Assembly: GCA_009784935.1 (NCBI GenBank) | Contig: WQXI01000007.1 | Span: 1-64,000, forward strand | Reading direction: 5' to 3' | Source of the DNA: Treponema sp. | Lineage (GTDB): Bacteria > Spirochaetota > Spirochaetia > Treponematales > Breznakiellaceae | Length of the DNA stretch: 64,000 nucleotides | In this document: positions 33,311 to 63,322 of the stretch, one piece after another | Position numbering within the stretch: the first letter of the stretch is position 1 | How the letters are laid out: each line of letters opens with the position of its first letter | The notes under the pieces: model-generated | Told to the model about the DNA's origin: nothing | Seen by the model: the letters and a program-made list of their open reading frames with translations, nothing else | Database searches by the model: none | Made by a program: the position numbers and the translations under genes

Positions 33311-33387
33311 TTTAGCTTCGCTGCAAGCACCTTTGTGCCTCTGTGCCTTTGTGTGAGGCTTCTTCATATAAATATACCACAGAAGGC
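33311..33387. repeat. Repeat fragment with AGCTTCGCTGCAAG module
   Basis: TAGCTTCGCTGCAAG at 33313-33327, then CTTTGTGCCTCTGTGCCTTTG and TGTGTGAGG, then ACCACAGAAGG near 33377. It combines the short AGCTTCGCTGCA module with the CTCTGTG units. Confidence 0.65.
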
Positions 33388-37273: not shown

Positions 37274-37287
37274 TTGTTAATGAAGAC

Positions 37288-37416
37288 CTCACACAAAGGC
37301 ACAAAGGCGCAGAGTTCACAGAGGATGAAATAATTGTAGTATTTTTCTTCCCTTCAATTCTTCTCCGTATTCTCCGTATTCTTCGTGTTCTTCGTGTCTC
37401 AGTGCCGCTGTGTGAG
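37288..37416. repeat. CTCACACA/TGTGTGAG-bounded repeat element
   Basis: The element starts CTCACACA (37288-37295) and ends TGTGTGAG (37409-37416), exact inverted termini. Between them lie CACAAAGG, GCAGAG and CACAGAGG units on one side and CTCCGTATTC/CTTCGTG units on the other. It lies between the DUF4139 gene and aspS, in a gap with no gene. Confidence 0.75.
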
Positions 37417-40120: not shown

Positions 40121-40185
40121 CGCAGAGAGATATATTTATCCCTCTGTGCTCTTTGTGCCTTTGTGTCTCTGTGTGAGTAAATTTC
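40121..40185. repeat. CTCTGTG repeat units between converging genes
   Basis: CGCAGAGAGAT, then CTCTGTGCTCTTTGTGCC, TTTGTGTCTCTGTGTGAG. These units fill the 65 bases between the GNAT gene and gnd stops. Confidence 0.65.
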
Positions 40186-58554: not shown

Positions 58555-59204
58555 ATACAATACTTGCGATTGATTCATTTTCATCATTATTTTCCGCTGC
58601 CCTTTTATACAAAGAAGAATTATTTTATATCGAATCTGACGCTCAGTTAAGACAGTCAGAACTTGCGATGGTTTTTATAGATGATTTATTTAAAAAAGCA
58701 AATATAAAGCCAAACGAACTTAACGGCGTTCTTTGTATGCAGGGTCCCGGCTCCTTTACGGGGCTTCGTATTGGTTATTCAATTGCAAAAGGACTGGCTC
58801 TTTCGCTTTCTATTCCTTTTGCGGCTGTACCGACATTAGATTGTATTGCCCTTAATTACAGCGGTTTAACTTTTGCCGTAACAGAAGCTATAAAATCATG
58901 CTGTTTTTATGCCGTTTTTGATAACGGTAAAAGGCTTACAGAAGATAAAGAAGGCTCTTTTCATTCTATTGCAGAAGAAGTCGAAATTTACCTAAAAAAA
59001 GCTCCTAATATAGCAATTACTGGAAAATTCTCTCCCCTTTTGAATGAATCTTTGCTGTGTTTTGCTGATAAAGTAACTATTAATAATGAAAAACGAGGTT
59101 ACGCAAAAGATATTTTAACCATTGCCAAAAACAGAAAAATACTTGATAATGATTGTGACGCTTATTTATTTGAAGGACCTCAATATTTAAGGAATTCTGT
59201 ATGA
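58551..59204 (+). CDS. tsaB: tRNA t6A-modification protein TsaB
   Basis: TsaB is the catalytically inactive ASKHA-fold partner that holds TsaD. The 217-residue sequence begins MNTILAIDSFSSLFSAAL and has the conserved MQGPGSFTGLRIGYSIAKGLA segment. It overlaps both tsaE and the HD-GYP gene, so tsaE-tsaB-HD-GYP form one unit. TsaD is not in the window. Confidence 0.93.
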   Translation: MNTILAIDSFSSLFSAALLYKEELFYIESDAQLRQSELAMVFIDDLFKKANIKPNELNGVLCMQGPGSFTGLRIGYSIAKGLALSLSIPFAAVPTLDCIALNYSGLTFAVTEAIKSCCFYAVFDNGKRLTEDKEGSFHSIAEEVEIYLKKAPNIAITGKFSPLLNESLLCFADKVTINNEKRGYAKDILTIAKNRKILDNDCDAYLFEGPQYLRNSV

Positions 59205-60250
59205 GTTATGTTATAGAAGAAGCAAATCTCGAACCTCTTGATGACTCCGGTAATGAAGGGCTCATTTTATCTTCTTCTCATAATCCCTTTAAAACAAGCG
59301 TTTTTCCGGTTTTAATTTTAAACAAGCAGTTAAAGATTATTTATTCCAACGAATCCTGCGAGCAGATGTTTCAGGGTTTCTCAAATCTCCTTGGAAGCTA
59401 TTTTTTTGATTTATTCGGCAAGGCATTTTCGCTGGAAGACGCAAGAAAAATAAGAGATACGATTATAAACGGAGGAAATGGTTTTTCTTGGAAAGGAACA
59501 GCGCTTTTAAAAACAAGAGAAACTGTTTCGATTAAGATTAGGGTCTATATTTTTCCTCTAGAAATGGATTTAAAGGCGCCGTCTGATTTTGTTGTAATGT
59601 TTGATGATTTTACAGAAGAAAGTAAAAAGCTTTTAAGATCTGTTTTTCTTTCTTTACTGGAAGCTTCTAAACTAAAAGATAATGATACAGGAAAGCATAT
59701 TGTCCGCGTTAACGAATATTCCAAACGACTTTCTGACGAACTCTTTAAAATAGGCGGCGATTCTTACAAGCGGATAGACGCTGACTTTATCGATAATATT
59801 GGTTTTTTAGCGGCAATGCATGATGTAGGAAAAATCGGCACACCGGATGACATCCTAAATAAAGAGGGTCCGCTCTCTGACTGGGAATGGGCAGTAATGC
59901 GCGAACATACAAAAAACGGAGCTTTTATTTTATCAACTTATCCCAATCCTATGGCAAAAGAAATCGCTCTCTCCCATCACGAAAAATGGAACGGCACCGG
60001 CTATCCATTCCAGCTCGAAGGCGAAATGATTCCGCTTGCCGCAAGAATTGTTACAATTGCAGATGTTTATGACGCTCTGCGCATGGAACGCAGTTATAAA
60101 CCAGCTTTGAGCCACGAAGTTGCAATATCAAAAATAATTGAACAAAGCGGCATTCATTTTGATCCAAAACTTATTAATATTTTTAAAGGTATAATGGGCG
60201 ACTTTGAAAAGATCTATAACTCCAACTCGGACGAAGCTCGAAGAGATTAA
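59201..60250 (+). CDS. PAS-HD-GYP c-di-GMP phosphodiesterase
   Basis: A 349-residue protein: a PAS-like sensor (about 30-140; ILNKQLKIIYSNESCEQMFQG) and an HD-GYP domain with His207-Asp208 in HDVGKIG, His259-His260 and the NGTGYP version of the GYP motif, plus IADVYDAL. HD-GYP enzymes degrade c-di-GMP. Metal-binding residues appear intact, so activity is likely. With the PilZ protein it makes a local c-di-GMP signalling pair. Confidence 0.9.
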   Translation: MSYVIEEANLEPLDDSGNEGLILSSSHNPFKTSVFPVLILNKQLKIIYSNESCEQMFQGFSNLLGSYFFDLFGKAFSLEDARKIRDTIINGGNGFSWKGTALLKTRETVSIKIRVYIFPLEMDLKAPSDFVVMFDDFTEESKKLLRSVFLSLLEASKLKDNDTGKHIVRVNEYSKRLSDELFKIGGDSYKRIDADFIDNIGFLAAMHDVGKIGTPDDILNKEGPLSDWEWAVMREHTKNGAFILSTYPNPMAKEIALSHHEKWNGTGYPFQLEGEMIPLAARIVTIADVYDALRMERSYKPALSHEVAISKIIEQSGIHFDPKLINIFKGIMGDFEKIYNSNSDEARRD

Positions 60251-60260
60251 ATACGAAGAG

Positions 60261-60400
60261 TCTCACACACGTCCAAGAATGCACGCGAATGCGTGTAGCT
60301 GGATAAATTAGGGAGACGTGGCGCACAACAAAAGTCAATGAGGCGGATAATGCGCGAAGGATTTATCCTGAGCTGTGCGCCCAGCACAGCGGCACAGAGA
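60261..60400. repeat. 140-bp repeat, left copy (inverted partner at 61289-61426)
   Basis: Starts TCTCACACACGTCC, contains AATGCACGC, AATGCGTGT, AATTAGGGAG, TGGCGCA, AATGCGCGA and ends GCGGCACAGAG. The same ordered motifs occur on the opposite strand at 61289-61426 with about three-quarters identity judged by eye. Confidence 0.75.
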
Positions 60401-60660
60401 TTCATTGGGAAGATCCTCTCGCAGGGCTCGCAGGGGAAGAATTAAGATAAGAATTTAACCACAGAGTTTCACGGAGTTCTTGTCCGAAAGCCTTTATTCC
60501 TGCTAGAAGCTTCGCTGCAAGGACCCGTGTTACTCCGTGTGCTAGAAGCTTCGCTGCAAGTACCTCTGTGGTAAAAATTACAAAGGACACAGAGGAAATA
60601 TCTGAAATTTATCTCGCAGTGCCCGCTGTGGTGATCTTGCAGCGAAGCTTCTAGCAAGAA
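60401..60660. repeat. Compound repeat block with three AGCTTCGCTGCA modules
   Basis: Alternating ACCACAGAG, CACGGAG, CTCCGTG and CTCTGTGG units, plus the module GCTAGAAGCTTCGCTGCAAG at about 60502-60521 and 60541-60560, and its complement at 60636-60655. The 440-base gap from 60251 holds no gene. Confidence 0.78.
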
Positions 60661-60689
60661 TTTTAGATTAAAAGTTCCCAATTTTTTGT

Positions 60690-61196
60690 TTATGGGTATG
60701 TAACTCTTCCTGTTAGCATATCAACGGTTGCAATTAGAAATCTTTGATAATCATGAGTAATAAATAATACATGATTAAAGAGACCGGAATAAATCTGTGC
60801 TTTACCATCCCAATCAACATTAACTGTATACTCTTTTCCGTTTTCAAAATTAAAGTTAAATGATATCATATTAAAAGTTGATTTTGAAACATGTGTTAAG
60901 TGCTCTCCATTAAAAACAAACTGAGTATTACCGCCCGGAATCCTTAGAAGTTCAACAGTAGCAGTATTCTGGAATCTAGTAAAAGGTTTTGATATCCAAT
61001 TAACTTGAATTCCATTATATTCAACAATTGATAGTCCATATATATAGAAAGCAATTAGGGTTGTTTCTTCATCCGGTAAATATTCATTAAATACATTTAT
61101 CGTATGTTTAGATTTATTGATATCTATAATAGCGCAAGAACCAATTAAAATAAAACAGACAATTACAAACAGCGTTAAAACAACATTTTTCTTCAT
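60690..61196 (-). CDS. Lipoprotein between inverted repeats
   Basis: A 168-residue lipoprotein (KKNVVLTLFVIVCFILIGSC; Cys21). The mature protein is beta-rich (VELLRIPGGNTQFVFNGEHL; FNMISFNFNFENGKEYTVNV) with no recognised family. AAGGAG precedes ATG. It is bracketed by the 140-bp inverted repeat pair, so it may have moved as a unit. Function unknown. Confidence 0.78.
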   Translation of the reverse strand: MKKNVVLTLFVIVCFILIGSCAIIDINKSKHTINVFNEYLPDEETTLIAFYIYGLSIVEYNGIQVNWISKPFTRFQNTATVELLRIPGGNTQFVFNGEHLTHVSKSTFNMISFNFNFENGKEYTVNVDWDGKAQIYSGLFNHVLFITHDYQRFLIATVDMLTGRVTYP

Positions 61197-61288
61197 AAAA
61201 ACTCCTTTAAGAAAACAACCAAATATTAGTATAATAATATCATAAATTTTAATAAAGTCAACATAAAAATATTGATAACACCTTCTTT

Positions 61289-61426
61289 CTCCGTGCCGTT
61301 GTGCCGGGCGCGCAGCTCCAGCTAAAGCTGTCGCGCATTATTTTATCTCATTGCATTTAATTTTGCGCCATGCCTCCCTAATTCATCCATCCACACGCAA
61401 TGCGTGCATTAATGGGCATGTGTGAG
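61289..61426. repeat. 140-bp repeat, right copy (inverted)
   Basis: On the minus strand it reads CTCACACATGCCC, AATGCACGC, TTGCGTGTGGATGGATG, AATTAGGGAGGCATGGCGCA and ends GCGCCCGGCACAACGGCACGG, matching the element at 60261-60400 in order. Confidence 0.75.
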
Positions 61427-61439
61427 TTTCTTACGGCAA

Positions 61440-62591
61440 TTAAATCATTCGCCGCTCCAGTTCCACAAAGGCTTCTTCTAAAAATCTGTTTAAATAAAGC
61501 ATTTTATTTTTGTTTTGCCAGCGGAAGAGTGTCTCTCCAATACACTCTTCAATACTACAAGAAAATCTGTTTTTAAATAATGTTAAATCTGGTCCATCAC
61601 TGCAGCGATACCCCATTAAAAGACTTTCTTTTATTAAAGTAAGTTTATCAAGTATTTCGCAGTTTGCGTTTTGTATATTTGGGTTTTTTATATATTCGTC
61701 AATATTAGAATTATAAGCATATCTTTTACCTTGAGGAATACTATCGTTTATTATAGTTCCGCTTGCGGCTGCTCCTGCTCCTATCCAGTTTTCTAGACGC
61801 CAATATCTTAAATTGTGCCTGCTGTATTTATTGTCTTTTGCAAAATTAGAAATTTCGTAATTTTCAAATCCTTTGGTAATTAATAATTCCCGTCCTGTAA
61901 GCCAAAGTTCTTCGGCTATTTCATTTTGCGGCAGAAGGATAGTATTTAGATTTATTTTTTTTGCTAAGGGAGTTTCTGGATCTACAGTTAAACTATAAAG
62001 AGAAATATGCGAAGGATTAAATTCTAAAATTTTATTTATATCATTGAAAACAGCTGCGTTATCCTGAAACGGGAGTCCTGTAATTAAATCAACACAAAGT
62101 GAATCTGGGAAATAACTGGAAGCTATTTTTAAACTTTTCTTTACCTTTTTTTCTTCCCTGTGTTCACTTCTTCCGCGATTTACAGCTAAACGGCTTTTTT
62201 CATTAAAAGTCTGCACTCCAAGGCTTATTCTATTAATACCGCCATCTTTGCAAATATCCAAAAAATCATTTGCGACAGATTCCGTGTTTGCCTCTATAGT
62301 AAACTCTACAGGATTAAAACAAGAAATTTTATTTAATTCATTTAATAAATACTTTATTTTACTGTCCAAAACAGAGGGAGTACCTCCGCCGATATATGCT
62401 GTTGGTATTTCTTCTATTTTAAAATATTCAATCTGCTCTCTTATATCTAAAACAAGCGCTTTTAAATAAGAATCAAAATATTCATTTTTAAGATTGTTTT
62501 CTTTAATGGAATTTATATCAATCGAATAAAAATCACAGTAGTCGCATAACGAACTGCAAAACGGGATATGAATATATAAAGACGCTATCAT
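61440..62591 (-). CDS. hemW: Heme chaperone HemW-like radical SAM protein
   Basis: A 383-residue radical SAM protein with Cys12-x3-Cys16-x2-Cys19 (CSSLCDYC) and no fourth Cys of true HemN, so HemW-like rather than coproporphyrinogen oxidase. AYIGGGTPSVL, TIEANTESV, ISLGVQTFN and the C-terminal HemN_C region (GYRCSDGPDLTLF) are present. HemW delivers heme to respiratory proteins; in a treponeme its role is unclear. It is 14 bases from the signal peptidase gene. Confidence 0.88.
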   Translation of the reverse strand: MIASLYIHIPFCSSLCDYCDFYSIDINSIKENNLKNEYFDSYLKALVLDIREQIEYFKIEEIPTAYIGGGTPSVLDSKIKYLLNELNKISCFNPVEFTIEANTESVANDFLDICKDGGINRISLGVQTFNEKSRLAVNRGRSEHREEKKVKKSLKIASSYFPDSLCVDLITGLPFQDNAAVFNDINKILEFNPSHISLYSLTVDPETPLAKKINLNTILLPQNEIAEELWLTGRELLITKGFENYEISNFAKDNKYSRHNLRYWRLENWIGAGAAASGTIINDSIPQGKRYAYNSNIDEYIKNPNIQNANCEILDKLTLIKESLLMGYRCSDGPDLTLFKNRFSCSIEECIGETLFRWQNKNKMLYLNRFLEEAFVELERRMI

Positions 62592-62605
62592 ACCGCGTAC
62601 CGCGT

Positions 62606-63322
62606 TTAAAGAAGCGTAATCTTGTTAAGCGGCCAAAACCTTAATAATGCTCTTGCTGATATTAACGAAGGAGAAATCGCTCCCCATGTACGCGAATCGT
62701 TTGTATTGCTCCTATCATCAGAAACAACATAACAATCATCATTACCAAGCACAATTGTATCAATGCTTCCGGAAAAAGGAATCGAATTATCCCAAATATC
62801 AGTAATCTGCGGAATCGATGTATGATACGGTCTTTGTGAAAGTTCAAACTCTGTAAGAATATAGGAACTGCCTGCAGCTTGTACCCTAAATCCATAACTG
62901 CTCATAGAAATTTCATCTCCGGGAAGACCGATAACACGTTTAATGTAATGCTGCCCCTCTCCGGAAAAAATCCCTGCCTTTTGAGCTGTAAAAAATCTTA
63001 CAAAACCATCAATGAAACGAAGCGGAAGATTTGCGTCTTTACGATGCCTCATGTCTACAAGCACAATGCTTCCCCGTTTATACGGAAATTGATTTTCATC
63101 GTTATTCCGCCCTAACGGCTTAAAAGAAGTAAATATTATCCTGTCGCCTTTATTTAAACCGGGCTGCATTGTATCGTTATCAACAACCCAAACAGAAATA
63201 AAAAACGCGCTTATACAATTATAAATAATAAATAAAATAAAAAATACAAGAAGAAATTTTAATGCTTTATGCCTTTGATACTTCTGAGCTGTATAAGAAT
63301 AATGTGTCCATTTATCAAACAT
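62606..63322 (-). CDS. lepB: Type I signal peptidase with Thr in place of catalytic Ser
   Basis: A 238-residue signal-peptidase-I homologue: cytoplasmic N-terminus, one membrane segment (about 22-45), then box B, here NDTMQPGLNKGD with Thr51 where Ser is expected; the general-base Lys128 lies in YIKRVIGLPGD; box E is SDDRSNTNDSRTWG. It follows a second lepB by ten bases. It may be a weak or regulatory paralogue, or a Thr-dependent protease. Confidence 0.85.
   Translation of the reverse strand: MFDKWTHYSYTAQKYQRHKALKFLLVFFILFIIYNCISAFFISVWVVDNDTMQPGLNKGDRIIFTSFKPLGRNNDENQFPYKRGSIVLVDMRHRKDANLPLRFIDGFVRFFTAQKAGIFSGEGQHYIKRVIGLPGDEISMSSYGFRVQAAGSSYILTEFELSQRPYHTSIPQITDIWDNSIPFSGSIDTIVLGNDDCYVVSDDRSNTNDSRTWGAISPSLISARALLRFWPLNKITLL

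Follow-up and report, generated by a model that had tools for sequence, protein, structure and literature searches.

A mobile, structured repeat of about 113 nt behind genes in Treponema, with two inverted copies around a lipoprotein-like gene

Two similar sequences in inverted orientation enclose a single lipoprotein-like gene on contig WQXI01000007.1 of a Treponema sp. (assembly GCA_009784935.1), raising the question of whether the gene and its flanks form one composite, MITE-like cassette or whether the flanks are two independent insertions. A first-pass annotation of the window (the whole 64,000-nt stretch analysed here) had offered both readings. Its description of the inverted arms was borne out: positions 60256-60400 and the complement of 61288-61432 were 77% identical over 145 nt (MAFFT, BLAST; E 1e-24 in a BLAST search against the own genome), and a repeat search resolved three collinear inverted pairs, 60256-60286 with 61402-61432, 60290-60342 with 61347-61399, and 60347-60400 with 61288-61341, each 81% complementary. 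The motifs it had listed were present in both arms, and one gene does lie between them, a 168-aa minus-strand ORF with a lipobox-like start (by eye). The codons of this gene are indeed AT-rich, with a GC content of 29% and a GC3 of 18%, where 58 long ORFs in the window average 39% and 33%. The features of the locus are as follows.

59201-60250, plus strand: HD domain gene with a weak PAS match, presumably of the HD-GYP type; copy 1 lies behind it.
60262-60269, plus strand: CTCACACA, the left part of a host CACAGAG-type repeat interrupted by copy 1.
60270-60382, plus strand: copy 1 of the structured element (core CGTCC...GTGCGCCC), in the sense of the HD gene and 19 nt behind its stop; found by repeat search, BLAST and covariance model.
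60383-60400, plus strand: right part of the host repeat (..CACAGCGGCACAGAGA) beyond copy 1, with CACA on either side of the element.
60690-61196, minus strand: lipoprotein-like gene, 168 aa.
61288-61305, minus strand: right part of the host repeat beyond copy 2.
61306-61418, minus strand: copy 2 of the structured element (core TGCCC...GCGCGCCC), in the sense of the hemW-like gene and 21 nt behind its stop; found by repeat search, BLAST and covariance model.
61419-61426, minus strand: CTCACACA, the left part of a host repeat interrupted by copy 2.
61440-62591, minus strand: radical SAM protein gene with a weak HemN_C match, which we take to be hemW-like; copy 2 lies behind it.

The arms had been described as 140-bp elements; the inverted similarity extends that far, but the repeated element proper covers only ~113 nt of each arm. 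The motifs had also been read as parts of one element. The outermost of them, CTCACACA and GCGGCAC, belong to a second repeat, because the CTCACACA repeat occurs uninterrupted elsewhere and two of the uninterrupted sites continue with GCGGCAC, as does the sequence beyond the element in the interrupted ones. In ~256 kb of own-genome sequence, overlapping loci included, we counted 11 uninterrupted CTCACACA sites and three interrupted by the element at the identical point. CTCACACA and GCACAGCGGCACAGAG both lie outside the element and represent this different repeat, which is found uninterrupted elsewhere in the own genome. In the window, the CACAGAG-type dispersed repeat (CTCACACAAAGGCACAAAGG...) is uninterrupted at 33338-33358, 37287-37307 and 40158-40178, and interrupted at 60262 and 61426. 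Three own-genome copies of the element have CACA flanks on both sides, which is possibly a 4-bp duplication; as the three share their position in the CTCACACA repeat, one composite repeat could have been copied, rather than three insertions having occurred. Two copies of the CACAGAG-type repeat can also point towards each other (37287 and 37416). The stretch from copy 1 to the lipoprotein gene contains a third small repeat, CTTGCAGCGAAGCTTCTAGCA, three times within 160 bp (60501-60521, 60540-60560 and 60636-60656).

The ~113-nt element is a dispersed mobile repeat that was previously unregistered. BLAST of the own genome returned further copies on other contigs, and across genomes it returned matches in 13 of 59, the own one counted. 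From 30 copies, both window arms among them, we built a covariance model; it scored copy 1 at 123.5 bits and copy 2 at 113.4 bits, and recovered at least 12 copies in the own genome. With the best 90 candidates scored in each genome, the model found the element in 33 of the 39 genomes of the genus, and the number of matches per genome ranged between species from 0 to at least 78, the latter in G031 (best 90 of 703 candidates scored). G029 had 29 copies; the four foremost copy-rich genomes were G031, G022, G029 and G008. Searches of the order and the phylum, which ran with stricter filters than the genus search, found the element in 22 of 241 genomes (E up to 1e-6) and in 2 of 296 sampled genomes, respectively. 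The order-level matches beyond the genus came from ten genomes of ten other genera, all in the same family, and both phylum-level matches were within the genus. Rfam gave no match up to E 1 in window positions 59000-63000 and none above the gathering score over 20 copy-bearing loci, where two weak opposite-strand hits touched a copy (BTnc231, 23.4 bits vs 80.4; BSnc120, 22.5 bits vs 114). BLAST of one element copy found nothing among phages and plasmids, and a degenerate core pattern of the element found nothing among viral contigs, in sets that may omit near records; a single Meiothermus contig that matched the degenerate pattern among genome contigs was taken as chance. The element was not found in the open-licence literature searched.

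Alignment of the copies predicts a strongly conserved, two-domain, single-strand fold in which both termini of the element pair with one central sequence, GGCG-T-GGCGC. In domain 1, the internal GGCG pairs with the left-end CGCC and encloses a GCAC/GTGT hairpin; in domain 2, which a single T separates from domain 1, the right-end GCGCC pairs with GGCGC, and a further hairpin combines a tandem G-A motif with a TTTA loop. RNAalifold recovered part of this fold, and the left-end CGCC/GGCG helix (columns 8-75, 9-74 and 10-73) was first spotted by eye and then emerged from column covariation across 109 copies. We scored 21 pairs in 64 distinct copies, picked by hand from 121 for their spread over genomes. 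Paired cells made up 98.7% of the total, as compared with 90.9% in shuffles; 14 of the 21 pairs had changed on both sides, as compared with 5.9; and the covariation score was 0.304, as compared with 0.148. None of 500 shuffles reached the observed pairing, two-sided changes or covariation score, and structures slid by 1-3 columns were only 19-58% paired. The left-tetranucleotide helix was paired in 98.4% of cells, and the tandem GA/GA motif was kept in 60 of the 64 copies. G-U outnumbered A-C among the paired cells (103 vs 7, or 27 vs 6 without two G-U-rich pairs), suggesting that the drawn strand is the one that folds. For copies 1 and 2 in the window, thermodynamic z-scores were -2.15 and -0.43, only modestly better than shuffles, and the case for the fold therefore rests on covariation.

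The element has moved many times. G031 contains nested copies in which the joined flanks of the inner copy recreate an uninterrupted element, split at CGGCGT(GG)C/GC (the slash marks the boundary), although a single event may underlie all of these nested copies; one such element-within-element arrangement has seemingly been multiplied as a whole in that genome (L087, L089, L094, L162, L168 and others). There are also the copies that interrupt the CTCACACA repeat, tandem copies sharing ends, and in G031 same-orientation series spaced ~110-1100 nt apart. Outside G031, the usual ends are GG/CGCC...GCGCCC/GG. There, the right GG was present in 33 of the 39 copies with a left GG, as compared with 5 of the 21 without, so that the GG/GG class comprises 33 of 60 copies. 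Where the left dinucleotide was not GG, it equalled the right one in only 1 of 21 copies, indicating that there is no general target duplication. Nor did we find a duplication of fixed length: there is the GG/GG class, there is CACA around the three own copies, and in G031 eight copies with an ACCAC context had no duplication.

Longer direct repeats occurred at the left boundary of 12 of 121 copies, as compared with 12 of 1500 in a swapped-flank control (left repeat copy ending no more than 3 nt from the model's left end, score of at least 28). Those measured further were 24 to ~107 nt long with variable spacing on the right side, some also cover sequence to the left of the element, and ~90% of copies have none. 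A plain insertion model leaves these repeats unexplained. A first reading of them as SINE-like long target duplications was set aside, as several lie in tandem arrays or next to tRNA genes and the empty sites found later needed none. Some copies adjoin tRNA genes, with tRNA-like 3' pieces around them (L181, Phe; L040, Val; L052, Lys, by ARAGORN; L058 by its likeness to L052).

Statistically, copies of the element prefer the position directly behind a gene, reading in the same direction, and often substitute their own stop codon for the gene's. With genes called as simple longest ORFs, the left-side gene lay in the element's sense for 71 of the 101 copies that could be scored (of the remaining 20 of 121, 19 overlap an ORF and one has no upstream ORF in reach); the copies in G031 share flanks, and outside that genome the figure was 37 of 50. 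Reading frames of at least 100 codons entered the left end of the element 33 times, in 32 of 121 copies, as compared with three frames entering the right end antisense. In the commonest outcome, seen for 14 of the 33 frames, translation would stop three codons into the element in one frame, giving ...GAQ-stop, from the donated sequence GGC GCC CAA TAA, or variants of it. We listed 18 upstream ORFs and submitted ten to Pfam, one of which had no match, and two to a PDB search. YebC matched to residue 241 of 246 (the solved homologue has 247 residues; PDB), a HisH-like amidotransferase to 201-204 of 212 (PDB), DctM to the profile end (Pfam), and a transporter permease over 183 of 184 profile positions (Pfam). 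Since these protein matches run close to the element, the upstream genes so examined are essentially whole, with the element at their natural ends. Ordinary chromosomal genes are among them: YebC, the HisH-like amidotransferase, phosphofructokinase and RF-1. The phosphofructokinase gene is followed by the element at the same codon in two species (L047 in G009 and L055 in G032); the native end of that gene, GGAGCCTGCTAA, resembles the left end of the element and is perhaps a decayed older copy.

The two window arms are probably separate copies of this element and not the two ends of one transposon. They were 73.9% identical to each other, with a median of 69.2% among 64 copies; copy 1 was 89.5% identical to a copy on contig C2, and copy 2 was 84.2% identical to a copy on contig C24. 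Because each arm is closer to copies elsewhere, we favour two independent insertions over a composite transposon, whose near-identical flanking copies would move together. The inverted appearance of the arms follows from the convergence of the HD gene and the hemW-like gene, as each copy lies in its own gene's sense. The locus was also compared with that of relatives, represented by one genome per species with hemW-like proteins 46-58% identical: in nine, the HD gene and the hemW-like gene abut, with aligned ends 0-110 nt apart and without elements or lipoprotein gene, and none of the hemW-like loci of 29 relatives had an element. The nine relatives indicate that neither the elements nor the lipoprotein gene is ancestral at the locus. 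The latter gene is sporadic in the genus, with matches in 9 of 39 genomes, the own included, and its product had no Pfam or NCBIfam match. Two own-genome paralogues (G000:C7:67093-67458, 29% identity; G000:C25:12925-13299, 49%) have no elements in their fetched flanks.

The nine relatives are also what would be expected had the inverted copies carried the lipoprotein gene, as one 1.2-kb unit, into the gap between the convergent genes; a single composite event would leave them without the whole stretch, and for this reason we retain that explanation, although we consider it improbable. The unusually low GC of the lipoprotein gene and the edges of the unit, within ~20 nt of both stop codons, are consistent with such a cassette. 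By contrast, the modest identity of the arms and their nearer relatives elsewhere argue against it, as does the finding that 11 further loci with lipoprotein homologues had no element in their fetched flanks. The rule that holds for the family already predicts each arm's direction from its own gene, and a target-site duplication around the whole unit was not convincing (3-4 bases at best, by eye). Of the two readings in the first-pass annotation, then, the two independent insertions are the one that gained support.

Searches with Y1_Tnp, RVT_1 and integron-integrase models revealed no recognisable mobiliser in the 39 genomes, some of which are incomplete, weakening the absences. Y1_Tnp genes were found in 17 of the 39, mostly one each, including G031 and G008, and in none of the own genome, G022 and G029. 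RVT_1 was found in 11, with one in G008 and none in the own genome, G031, G022 or G029. No genome had an integron integrase over the TIGR02249 cut-off; a tyrosine recombinase (G000:C41:16968-17789, with many relatives and frames mostly of 310-570 aa) matched the integron-integrase model in two gapped pieces, below the cut-off. No element lay beside a Y1_Tnp or RVT_1 gene at the 12 + 12 loci fetched, and the fetched integrase-like loci likewise had none. Copies showed no replication-strand bias, with 26 of 52 on the G-rich strand (GC skew, three genomes). Half an element behind an own-genome ORF was considered as an autonomous partner and discarded, as the neighbour, which we take to be a sugar-phosphate-mutase-like gene, is not a transposase.

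The explanation that we consider best overall, and hold to be likely, is that a mobile folded element is placed at gene ends in sense, that the window arms inserted independently, and that the element spreads by recognition of its folded strand. Under this explanation, copies 1 and 2 would each have entered a CACAGAG-type repeat behind its own gene, and the lipoprotein gene would lie between them by coincidence or would have arrived separately. The element would be non-autonomous, its folded strand being recognised in trans and its ends joined at a GG (or GG-nGC) target, and selection, target choice or both would leave copies at places where they end translation quickly and lend the upstream messenger a structured 3' end. 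We advance only tentatively, and with more doubt than conviction, a bolder form of the proposal: that this is a new class of small mobile element, transposed by recognition of a folded strand whose two ends are both paired to a single central sequence. Such an element would target, or survive only at, GG-nGC sites at the ends of genes and in their direction; by exchanging the stop codon and adding a structured 3' UTR, it would rewire messenger 3' ends across the genus.

Single-strand DNA transposition of the REP/RAYT or IS200/IS605 kind would suit a non-autonomous element with a one-strand structure and little or no target duplication, and Y1_Tnp genes are present in 17 of the 39 genomes. We nevertheless think it unlikely that such a system is the mover, given that neither the own genome nor G029, with its 29 copies, has a Y1_Tnp gene, that none of the 12 fetched Y1_Tnp loci adjoins an element, as copies flanking a RAYT gene would, and that replication-strand bias is absent. 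Somewhat less probable still is SINE-like retroposition, in which a sense RNA, possibly a messenger 3' end, is copied and inserted. The sense bias behind genes, the tandem copies sharing ends, and the fixed left end with direct repeats of variable right spacing in 12 of 121 copies all point that way; however, RVT_1 is lacking in the own genome and in three of the four most copy-rich ones (G031, G022 and G029), the great majority of copies have no direct repeats, and the nested and CACAGAG-repeat cases require no long duplication. It is very unlikely that the element is now immobile, an ancient cis-acting 3' signal for termination, stability or processing that selection has kept at gene ends. 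Strong structural covariation, placement behind genes and the want of a recognisable mobiliser would all agree with that account, but the element is missing at the same place in relatives, nested and tandem copies exist, and the number of matches differs widely between species. We give least credence to an integron-type system in which the element is an attC-like site and each gene with its element a mobile cassette. That model draws on the placement in sense after genes, often with a stop codon carried along, the same-orientation series in G031, the asymmetry of the folded strand, and the direct repeats that cover the stretch left of the element. It is contradicted by a right end without a GTT box and a left end of CAAT rather than AAC, by the absence of an integron integrase above the cut-off in all 39 genomes, and by the ordinary chromosomal nature of several upstream genes.

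These data add a structured element, not registered before and supported by covariation, that is common across a bacterial genus and has been mobile without an apparent enzyme. Its placement at gene ends and its donated stop codon raise the questions of whether it moves via a folded strand and whether it alters messenger stability or termination; if the proposal is right, a selfish repeat rewires messenger 3' ends throughout the genus. The locus also carries a caution: where the neighbouring genes converge, a gene enclosed by inverted repeats is not necessarily part of a composite transposon.

With respect to known systems, the label MITE-like fits the element in so far as it is small, non-coding, non-autonomous, multi-copy and mobile, but MITEs are defined by long terminal inverted repeats, whereas the consensus ends of the element, CGCCCAA... 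and ...GCGCCC, form direct repeats with only ~5 nt of inverted match (by inspection), and we found no fixed target duplication. At the 12 Y1_Tnp and 12 RVT_1 loci fetched, we saw no parental transposon sharing the ends. Treponema integron attC sites resemble the element in their folded strand and their position behind genes in sense; they carry AAC/GTT boxes, which the element lacks, and the element occurs as many single dispersed copies with no integron integrase over the cut-off (PMC3607928). REPs are palindromes of 20-40 bp with an unpaired GTAG or CGTC tag, and their termini are reported to supply stop codons to flanking ORFs; the CGTC type, seemingly without a dedicated transposase, is reported from Spirochaetes among other phyla (PMC3733652). 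The element shares with REPs its small, structured, extragenic and non-autonomous character and the stop-codon habit, and differs in its 113-nt length, two domains and paired left CGCC. ERIC, CIR, Correia and RUP elements are described as ~100-150 bp, intergenic and non-autonomous, with a stable RNA fold and, for some, a position behind genes where they affect the messenger; CIR elements consist of two arms and a linker (PMC2229807). Like that group, the element is dispersed between genes, non-autonomous and folded, and it works in the same manner; unlike it, by description and not by sequence, it has ends that pair with a central GGCG-T-GGCGC, usually GG...GG boundaries, placement in sense and a stop codon of its own. 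We would file the element as a new variant among bacterial small mobile repeats.
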